This document shows, piece by piece, positions 885-40,060 of a DNA stretch of 64,000 bases (positions are counted from its first letter, which is position 1; every line of letters begins with the position of its first letter). The notes below the pieces were generated by a model. It was given only the letters and a program-made list of their open reading frames with translations. It made no database searches and was not told where the DNA came from. The DNA is from Candidatus Raymondbacteria bacterium RIFOXYA2_FULL_49_16 (GTDB lineage: Bacteria; Fibrobacterota; OXYB2-FULL-49-7; XYB2-FULL-49-35). Position numbers and translations under genes: made by a program. The stretch lies in assembly GCA_001789205.1 (NCBI GenBank), contig MFYT01000006.1, forward strand, positions 11,893 through 75,892, written 5' to 3'.

Positions 885-922
885 TAAAAAAGTGCGGGAC
901 GCCCTTGGGAGGCGTCCCGCAC
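885..922 (-). terminator. Intrinsic terminator of the sigma factor gene
   Basis: A perfect 12-bp stem (892-903 with 911-922, 7-nt loop) is followed on the minus strand by a run of six T. It lies about 40 nt past the sigma factor stop. The sequence just before it is nearly repeated after the mini-sigma gene near 40010. Confidence 0.9.
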
Positions 923-962
923 CAACCACAAAAGAGAAGGGGGGGATTTATGTATACGCCTA

Positions 963-1811
963 TTAGGCGCAATGCGCCATTTGCACTGTGGGAAAACCCG
1001 CTTTCATTTTTTCGAGGGCCTTTTTCTTGATCTGACGCACACGTTCTTTGGAGATGTTCAATTTTCTACCGATCTGCTCGAGGTTGAAGGAGGTTTCCGC
1101 GTCAATGCCAAAATAATACTTGATGACCTTTTTTTCCTGCGTGTTGAGGGAATCGACCATCTCATCGATATTAAAGCGCAGGGCGTCCTTGTCCACGAAT
1201 TCGTCCGGCGCCTCGGTGTGGGTGTCGGCCATGAGGTCGTGGATATTGGCGTCGTTCTCGTCATCGATCTGGGCGTCCATGGAAACACGGTTGTTGGAAA
1301 GCGAGAGAATCTGCTCAATCTCGTACGGTTTGCTCTGGGACTTACGCGCCACATAATCGTAATCAATGAAGCCGTGTTCTTGCAGAGACATTTCCGCGAG
1401 GCGGTTGACCCGTTTTGACTTTGACTCTTTTTCCGCTGAGACGCGGACCAGGCGCGATTTCTCGTACAGGGCCTTGATAATGGACTGCCGGATCCACCAC
1501 ACCGAGTAGGAGATGAACTTGACCGAGTAGCTTGACATATTGTAGCGATCAATGCTTTCAATGAGCCCAAGATTGCCTTCGTTGATGAGCTCGGGCATGG
1601 AGAGGCCCTGGTTTTGGTATTTTATCGACACGCTGACAACAAACCTCAGATTGGACGTGATTAGTTTATTGAGCGCTTCCTTGCTTTTGCTTTTTTTATA
1701 TTCAGTGAGGAGTTCACGTTCCTCTTCGCGCGAAAGGCGCGGATACCCTCTGATCTCTTTCAAATATTGATTAACGAAGTCCTGCTCTGTTCTGTACTTC
1801 TTATAATACAT
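963..1811 (-). CDS. rpoD: RNA polymerase sigma factor, RpoD/SigA type without region 1.1
   Basis: This 282-residue sigma-70 factor directs core RNA polymerase to promoters. Region 1.2 (YLKEIRGYPRLSREEE), region 2 (NLRFVVSVSIKYQNQGL, then GNLGLIESIDRY and the -10 reading segment KFISYSVWWIRQSI), region 3, the acidic 3.2 linker and region 4 with its helix-turn-helix (LEQIGRKLNISKERVRQIKKKAL) follow in order. Its length and layout resemble the short primary sigma factors of Bacteroidota and Fibrobacterota, so it is probably the housekeeping factor, although a group 2 factor cannot be excluded. I chose the ATG at 1811 because GGAGG lies 6 nt upstream; an in-frame TTG at 1823 would put that site inside the gene. 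It is a single-gene unit with its own promoter and terminator. An internally deleted copy lies at 39728-39982. Confidence 0.9.
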   Translation of the reverse strand: MYYKKYRTEQDFVNQYLKEIRGYPRLSREEERELLTEYKKSKSKEALNKLITSNLRFVVSVSIKYQNQGLSMPELINEGNLGLIESIDRYNMSSYSVKFISYSVWWIRQSIIKALYEKSRLVRVSAEKESKSKRVNRLAEMSLQEHGFIDYDYVARKSQSKPYEIEQILSLSNNRVSMDAQIDDENDANIHDLMADTHTEAPDEFVDKDALRFNIDEMVDSLNTQEKKVIKYYFGIDAETSFNLEQIGRKLNISKERVRQIKKKALEKMKAGFPTVQMAHCA

Positions 1812-1845
1812 TTTAACCTCCAATTCTCGTTTGATGTTCTATAAA

Positions 1846-1877
1846 AATATAACGAAAGTGGCTTTTCTATGTGTCAC
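1846..1877 (-). promoter_or_regulatory. Probable promoter of the sigma factor gene
   Basis: On the minus strand GTGACA (1877-1872) and TATATT (1851-1846) are separated by 20 nt, which is long for a sigma-70 promoter. The same two hexamers at the same spacing precede the mini-sigma gene (39663-39694), and this shared block is the main support. Confidence 0.5.
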
Positions 1878-38557: not shown

Positions 38558-38576
38558 GTATTTCGTCCTTTTTTTT
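38558..38576 (+). repeat. Left copy of an 18-bp direct repeat flanking the ATPase remnant
   Basis: GTATTTCGTCCTTTTTTT is identical to 39626-39643. Beyond the T run both continue with a related CACCATT stretch. Confidence 0.85.
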
Positions 38577-38701: not shown

Positions 38702-39599
38702 GTGAAGGCTGCCTGGGATGAAAAGGCCAGAAAAGAAATCCCTGTGGTAATCTTGGCGCTGGGGTCTTCCTCTTTTTTTATCCAGAAAGGCCTGTCAGAG
38801 AGCCTCTCCGGCCGTTTTCTGCTGTATCGCTTTCCTCATTGGAGCTTTCCGGAAATGAAGGCCCTGTACGGGTGGGATGTGGATAAATGGATCTTTTATG
38901 GCGGGTATCCCGGCACCGGAACACTCGTCGATACACCCGGCACCTGGCAAAACTATGTCACGGATTCCCTCATTGAAACCGTGCTCGCAAAGGATGTGCT
39001 GCAAATGCAGAGCGTGGCAAAGCCCGCGTTACTGAGGCACCTCTTTGCGCTATCCGCGGCGCATCCGGCGCAGATATTTTCCTATAATAAAATGTTTGGC
39101 CAGCTTCAGGATGCGGGCAACACTACCACCCTGTCCCATTATCTCAAGCTCTTGGAATCAGCTTATCTCATCATGCGGACTGGAAATGTTCCGGCAGGGT
39201 CAGAGGGTCAAAAGAGGCAGCAGCCCCAAGATTATCTTATGGAACAATGCCCTTGTCACGGCGCTCCATTTAAAATCTTTTGCGGAAACACGGAAAGATC
39301 ACGAATGGTGGGGGTGTCTTGTGGAAAACGCGGTCGGTGGTCACCTGCTCAATCACCTCCATGAGACAGCAGGTGAGTTGTATTACTGGCGGCAGAGAGA
39401 CTTTGAAGTGGATTTTGTGCTGAAAACCGCTGAAAAAACAGTGGCCATTGAAGTCAAATCTTCCCGGCCAAGGGTGTCAAAAGGTCTTGAGGCGTTTTTA
39501 AAGAGGTATCCAAAGGCCGTGCCGGTCATTATCGGACCGGGTGGCATAGCTCTTGAAGAGTTTTTCACCATGTCTTTAGACAAACTGCCAGGATTGTAA
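38702..39599 (+). pseudogene. AAA ATPase with DUF4143 domain, truncated and frameshifted
   Basis: The first frame reads AWDEKARKEIPVVILALGSSSFFIQKGLSESLSGRF, recognisable by ALGSSSFFIQKGLSESL, and then GGYPGTGTLVDTPG, LAKDVLQMQSVAKPALLRHLF and LSHYLKLLESAYLI. At about 39173 the match jumps to another frame: GSSPKIILWNNALVTAL, ENAVGGHLLNHL, YYWRQRDFEVDFVL and EVKSSRPR, which is the DUF4143 nuclease-like end. Intact relatives are about 390 residues with a Walker A loop near the start; here the first third, including the P-loop, is missing. It is therefore a dead copy of a mobile-type ATPase. Confidence 0.85.
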
Positions 39600-39625: not shown

Positions 39626-39643
39626 GTATTTCGTCCTTTTTTT
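39626..39643 (+). repeat. Right copy of the 18-bp direct repeat
   Basis: Identical to 38558-38575, lying 27 nt after the ATPase remnant and just before the mini-sigma promoter. Confidence 0.85.
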
Positions 39644-39662
39644 ACTTCACCATTACATTCGT

Positions 39663-39694
39663 GTGACACTTAGAAATTTGGTTTTCGTTATATT
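39663..39694 (+). promoter_or_regulatory. Probable promoter of the mini-sigma gene
   Basis: GTGACA (39663-39668) and TATATT (39689-39694) are 20 nt apart, exactly as upstream of the full sigma factor gene (1877-1846), and the sequence between and after them is partly alike. Confidence 0.5.
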
Positions 39695-39727
39695 TATAAC
39701 ACACAAGACAATGTATCGGAGGACAGA

Positions 39728-39982
39728 ATGTATTACAAAAAACCTGCTGTGAAGAATGAAGAAAAACATGTCAATATTGAAGAAATGATCGGTACACTCA
39801 CCAGTCCGGAAAAACTGGTCATCAGTTCCTATTTCGGGCTCAACGAAAAAGAAGCGTTGACCCTTGAGCAAGTCGAGAAAAAGCTGAATATTTCAGAGGA
39901 ACGGGTCAGGCAGCTCAAAAACAATGCTTTGGATAAAATGAAACATGCCTTCCAAACAGTACAAATAGCGTATTGCACATAG
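39728..39982 (+). CDS. Region-4-only sigma-like protein (mini-sigma), 84 aa
   Basis: The protein starts MYYKK like the full sigma factor at 963-1811, then goes straight to sigma region 4: IEEMIGTLTSPEKLVISSYFGL and LEQVEKKLNISEERVRQLKNNAL, ending FQTVQIAYC as the parent ends FPTVQMAHC. Over the last 67 residues I count 35 identities with the parent. Regions 1.2 to 3 are missing, so it cannot open a promoter alone; region 4 could still touch the RNA polymerase beta flap and -35 elements. GGAGG lies before the ATG. Promoter block, 3' flank and terminator also resemble those of the parent, so it is a duplicated, internally deleted copy. The frame is intact despite divergence, which suggests that it is used. 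Confidence 0.85.
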   Translation: MYYKKPAVKNEEKHVNIEEMIGTLTSPEKLVISSYFGLNEKEALTLEQVEKKLNISEERVRQLKNNALDKMKHAFQTVQIAYCT

Positions 39983-40028
39983 CACTATGTGTTAATATAA
40001 ATCCCCCTTCTCTTTTGTGGTTGGTAAC

Positions 40029-40060
40029 GGGGCGCCCCCCCTTGGCGCCCCTTACTTTTT
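40029..40060 (+). terminator. Intrinsic terminator of the mini-sigma gene
   Basis: An 8-bp GC stem (40029-40036 with 40044-40051) is followed by TTACTTTTT. The block just before it (about 40003-40027) is nearly the same as the block before the sigma factor terminator. Confidence 0.85.

Follow-up and report, generated by a model that had tools for sequence, protein, structure and literature searches.

What purpose might a bacterial gene serve that encodes region 4 of a sigma factor and nothing else? The question is raised by a short gene located 38 kb away from a full sigma gene in the 5.4-Mb genome of a deep Fibrobacterota lineage. Both genes fall within the window, by which we mean the whole stretch of 64,000 nucleotides that was analysed. 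Their features are as follows, with the basis of each in brackets.

39650..39657, forward strand: upstream island CCATTACA, common to the sigma promoter (flank alignment)
39663..39695, forward strand: promoter block GTGACACTTAGAAA-N6-TTTCGTTATATTT of the short gene (alignment; in the whole genome elsewhere only at the sigma gene)
39718..39722, forward strand: ribosome binding site GGAGG of the short gene (sequence)
39728..39982, forward strand: short gene, sigma region 4 only, 84 aa, ATG start (Pfam, dN/dS, tree, model, Foldseek)
39997..40025, forward strand: 3' element ATAAATCCCCCTTCTCTTTTGTGGTTGGT downstream of the short gene, common to the sigma gene (alignment, genome search)
40023..40060, forward strand: intrinsic terminator of the short gene, hairpin and T-run (fold, z -3.4)
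1845..1877, reverse strand: promoter block GTGACACATAGAAA-N6-TTTCGTTATATTT of the sigma gene (alignment)
963..1811, reverse strand: the parent, a full alternative sigma factor with regions 1.2-4, 282 aa (Pfam, tree)
921..951, reverse strand: 3' element ATAAATCCCCCCCTTCTCTTTTGTGGTTGGT of the sigma gene (alignment, genome search)
885..923, reverse strand: intrinsic terminator of the sigma gene (fold, z -4.1)

The short protein is a sigma-70 region 4 domain by sequence and predicted fold. Pfam Sigma70_r4 (PF04545) matches residues 21-73 over essentially the whole domain (profile positions 2-50 of 50) at 44.6 bits, above the curated cut-off of 24.1 bits. A Pfam search found none of regions 1.2, 2 and 3 in the protein, which therefore lacks the region 2 that a functional sigma-70 factor uses for core binding and -10 recognition. 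An earlier note, made from the sequence alone, had described a clean frame with a ribosome binding site and the loss of regions 1.2 to 3, and both descriptions agree with the intact open reading frame, the GGAGG and a Pfam match confined to region 4. The predicted structure shows the helices of region 4 after a disordered tail of 14 residues, at moderate confidence (mean pLDDT 73.7). In Foldseek the model resembles solved sigma region 4 structures, including region 4 of T. aquaticus sigma-A (1ku7) at rmsd 1.5.

Directly upstream of the short gene, at 38702-39599 of the window, lies what is left of an AAA/DUF4143 ATPase, now broken across two reading frames, with the DUF4143 match in the 3' part. 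The remnant is flanked by an exact 18-nt direct repeat, GTATTTCGTCCTTTTTTT, at 38558-38575 and 39626-39643, the second copy of which falls within the sequence preceding the short gene.

The full sigma factor in the window is an alternative one. In the sigma tree it falls in an alternative-sigma clade of Fibrobacterota with support 100/95, separate from the housekeeping clade, although long branches flagged in this tree leave its exact place unsure. It neither groups with primary sigmas nor carries the TRERIRQ...KHPSR type of region 4 expected of a housekeeping (group 1) factor. The housekeeping sigma of this genome is instead G000:C59 (L002), with TRERIRQIKERAIKRLKHPSR (TRERIRQIK...KHPSR), and the earlier suggestion that the short protein could be a decoy of the housekeeping factor is not supported. 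The closest relatives of the parent, at 40-44% identity, are the alternative sigmas of the same clade (L056, L037, L058, L066, L064, L067, L068, L071), and unlike the present genome none of theirs was seen to contain a short copy. The shared promoter and 3' element are also absent from all fetched flanks of the sigma genes of this clade.

Several lines of evidence connect the short gene to this parent. The last 70 residues align without gaps at 37/70 identical positions (the earlier count was 35 of 67), both proteins begin with MYYKK, and a tree of region-4 sequences pairs the short protein with its parent as sisters (support 99/94). The likeness extends into non-coding DNA on both sides. Upstream, about 98 nt align at 73% (E 1.5e-7), with no other substantial match in the genome, and include the identical islands CCATTACA, GTGACAC-n-TAGAAA and TTTCGTTATATTT. 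The earlier note had pointed to a common promoter-like block, which is indeed found at both genes, with GTGACA and TATATT, 20 nt apart, as putative -35 and -10 elements. The N6 between the last two islands is identical at 0/6 positions, and the combination GTGACACnTAGAAA-N6-TTTCGTTATATTT occurs nowhere else in the genome. No chance match to the block form GTGACAC-n-TAGAAA-N6-TTTCGTTATATTT is expected in the window (0 expected), and a genome-wide search for a wider regulon of the block returned only these two genes. Because the islands are identical despite a wholly different N6, the regulation common to the short gene and its parent looks selected, as far as sequence can tell.

Downstream of both genes lies ATAAAT-CCCCC-TTCTCTTTTGTGGTTGGT, in which the sigma copy has two extra C. 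Written as ATAAAT-(CC)-CCCCCTTCTCTTTTGTGGTTGGT, this 3' element matches between the genes but for the 2-nt indel and has only two occurrences in the genome, much as the earlier note had it in describing a nearly equal 25-nt flank before the terminator. Taking neutral identity as about 0.44, the value at third codon positions, one would expect 23 identical bases in a row with a probability near 7e-9 per site. The terminator hairpins that follow the two elements differ in sequence, and both fold well. The element (39997-40025 and 921-951) is conserved far beyond neutral sites and unexplained; its pairing with 5' leaders or mRNAs was no better than that of shuffled sequences.

The sister relationship and the common 5' and 3' non-coding DNA support an origin of the short gene as an internally deleted duplicate of its parent, flanks included, as the earlier note had suspected. 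Gene conversion was considered as a cause of the conserved flanks and rejected, because the conserved islands are interrupted by fully diverged stretches and the coding sequence has diverged too. Nor is it supported that the GTGACA half-site derives from an SOS (LexA) box, since the second half-site TGTCAC is absent from the sigma promoters.

The genome does contain candidate LexA boxes elsewhere. A palindromic promoter operator, GTGACAGGTTTTGTCAC(ATC), stands 8 bases before GTTATATT in most copies and is found at G000:C64:27202 (L124) and at least 11 further places, for example C26:95260 (L117), C31:26803 (L118), C5:18946 (L086), C97:81989 (L098) and C73:28397 (L120). Genes below it, named by eye, include recA, a tyrosine recombinase, a ComM-like protein and IS91-like transposases, as well as a PaeR7I-like nuclease, a BrnT-like toxin and a DUF4143-type ATPase. 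This lineage probably uses the operator as its LexA (SOS) box.

A duplicate that has lost most of its length might be a recently dying fragment, once functional and now decaying, with a frame left open by chance. In the region-4 tree, nearly all amino-acid change between the two falls on the short branch (1.48 vs 0 on the parent's), no orthologue is known, and a simulated neutral branch still escapes stop codons with P 0.11, so that the open frame is weak evidence by itself. The codon positions tell otherwise. The short gene and its parent differ at 18/15/39 first, second and third positions, with pairwise dN at 0.28-0.30 and a saturated dS of 1.33 (LWL85) to 2.43 (NG86). This pattern, with dN about 0.29 and dS at least 1.3, makes neutral decay unlikely. 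Pairwise dN/dS is about 0.1-0.2; if the short branch is credited with every non-synonymous change but only half of the synonymous ones, the ratio rises to roughly 0.25-0.45, which is relaxed but not neutral. The half share follows from equal times on the two branches. Under it, 33 or fewer changes at codon positions 1 and 2 arise on a simulated neutral branch with P 0.00025, while neutrality is not rejected (P 0.12) if only 1/3 of synonymous change is placed there. Neither the frame loss nor the neutral codon pattern of a sigma pseudogene is therefore seen, and the earlier view that this is not a dying fragment is borne out by dN/dS and simulation. Promoter, ribosome binding site, 3' element and terminator are all intact despite saturated synonymous sites, and we regard decay as very unlikely. 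With a frame kept intact by selection, the short gene is probably a built-in regulator of its own parent.

The distribution of the gene adds little to this picture. Searches for an orthologue of the short protein found nothing but whole sigma factors in 60 relatives, in 167 genomes of the phylum, in a scan of 84,980 species (GTDB species contigs) and in IMG/VR; phages and plasmids gave distant matches only. The source genome is the sole member of its class among the genomes compared, so the absence of orthologues is weak evidence. Other short frames (G044:C22, G054:C91, G056:C84, G064:C198) turned out to be sigma genes cut by contig ends.

Which surfaces of region 4 have changed bears on function. 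Residues are numbered here after E. coli sigma-70 from the ungapped match, and their DNA-contact roles are presumably those seen in Taq sigma-A region 4 with -35 DNA (1ku7). The contact roles also rest on PMC2988021, according to which H1, H2 and H5 of region 4 face the flap. The position of Ec R584, basic in 47/49 relatives and K in the parent, is E in the short protein, which also shows K593 to N and G577 to E. Across residues 44-73 the net charge is +2, compared with +7 in the parent. E585, R586, R588 and Q589, invariant in all sequences, are kept, and the helix-turn-helix is the best-conserved segment (19/27 identical to the parent vs 11/21 in H1-H2). The H5 tail FxTVQxAxC is kept as well.

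We tentatively propose that the short protein is expressed alongside its parent sigma and modulates it as a sigma-4 mimic, probably by negative feedback. The alternative-sigma gene was copied together with its promoter and terminator leader, and the copy lost about 200 codons in frame, covering regions 1.2-3. Selection has kept the short gene as a monocistronic unit with the same control signals as the parent. Its product, presumably expressed, would be a free sigma domain 4 that may dock where the parent's own domain 4 does, at the beta-flap tip of RNA polymerase, but without recognising the -35 element as the parent does. Such docking would damp or retune transcription by the parent sigma, so that a copy of the controlled protein would itself exert the negative feedback. 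The 99/94 sister placement, the constraint, the unique promoter islands and 3' element, the region-4 fold, the two lost basic contacts, the H5 tail, the precedent of T4 gp33 and the lack of a region-2-only partner all favour a mimic. Against it, the helix-turn-helix is more conserved than H1-H2, as would be expected too if DNA binding had been retained. A domain 4 without a tether should also be a poor competitor of a tethered one, the gene is known from one genome only, and the pLDDT of the model is moderate. Slightly more doubtful is the fuller picture of a feedback device, in which the parent's private promoter and 3' element would ensure that whenever the sigma is made a free version of its domain 4 is made too, limiting or redirecting that sigma.

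Retained DNA binding leads to a different proposal, in which the short protein is a free regulator whose helix-turn-helix recognises, with altered specificity, a -35-like site such as the GTGACAC block, to repress or activate both genes and others without docking on RNA polymerase. The conservation of the helix-turn-helix with its four invariant residues and of the GTGACAC block in both promoters would fit. However, the Ec R584 position has turned to E, K593 to N and the charge has dropped, the block is confined to these two promoters, and sigma region 4 on its own generally binds DNA weakly, which makes such a regulator unlikely. Region 4 is also commonly targeted by anti-sigma factors, so the short protein could be a decoy that binds an anti-sigma gripping the parent's region 4 and frees the parent, producing positive feedback. 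The control signals common with the parent would suit this, and sigma mimicry is known in PhyR-NepR-EcfG (PMC8103513), but there is no known anti-sigma for the parent sigma and we consider a decoy more improbable still. Even less credit goes to a co-activator or split-sigma half of the T4 gp33/gp55 or SigO/RsoA type, which would give domain 4 to a domain-2 protein. The short protein has the architecture that gp33 has in a split sigma (PMC2988020); here, however, all 11 region-2 matches in the genome sit in frames that also have region 4, and a Pfam search at E 0.001 found no region-2-only protein.

The sigma-4 mimic proposed here has partial counterparts. Stand-alone region-4 proteins are already known, mainly from phages. 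T4 gp33 is a sigma-4 mimic that binds the beta-flap tip and represses basal transcription without reading the -35 element (PMC2988020). The two are alike as small proteins in the role of sigma domain 4, with flap docking proposed in our case. Yet gp33 is a phage protein that works with gp55 and the sliding clamp, whereas the short gene is cellular, retains a recognisable region-4 sequence, comes from a sigma gene of the same genome, uses its parent's promoter and has no region-2-like partner comparable to gp55. In SigO-RsoA of Bacillus subtilis, sigma domains lie on separate small proteins (PMC8103513, PMC10141391), although the two sources disagree on which subunit holds which domain. The SigO-RsoA halves together make one sigma; here the parent is complete and a partner with the missing sigma domains is lacking. 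Phage Sigma70_r4-only proteins are stand-alone region-4 domains of about 70-145 aa, like the short protein, but they are mostly uncharacterised, and none is copied from a host sigma and regulated together with it; no close sequence relation to them was found in IMG/VR. The sigma-like domain of PhyR, from the general stress response, mimics a sigma factor to steer it (PMC8103513), but is an ECF-like domain fused to a receiver that acts on an anti-sigma rather than a region-4-only duplicate. The earlier claim that no system of exactly this kind has been described stands within the literature searched, where we found no cellular region-4 protein cut from an alternative sigma of the same genome under its parent's private promoter, but gp33 is a described sigma-4 mimic.

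The pair of genes exposes a strongly conserved and unexplained 3' element. If the proposed mimicry is true, the pair would also make it possible to test directly if domain 4 on its own can rival the tethered form. Phages are known to encode sigma-4 mimics, and a co-regulated mimic derived from a bacterium's own alternative sigma would, if confirmed, represent a new form of sigma control.
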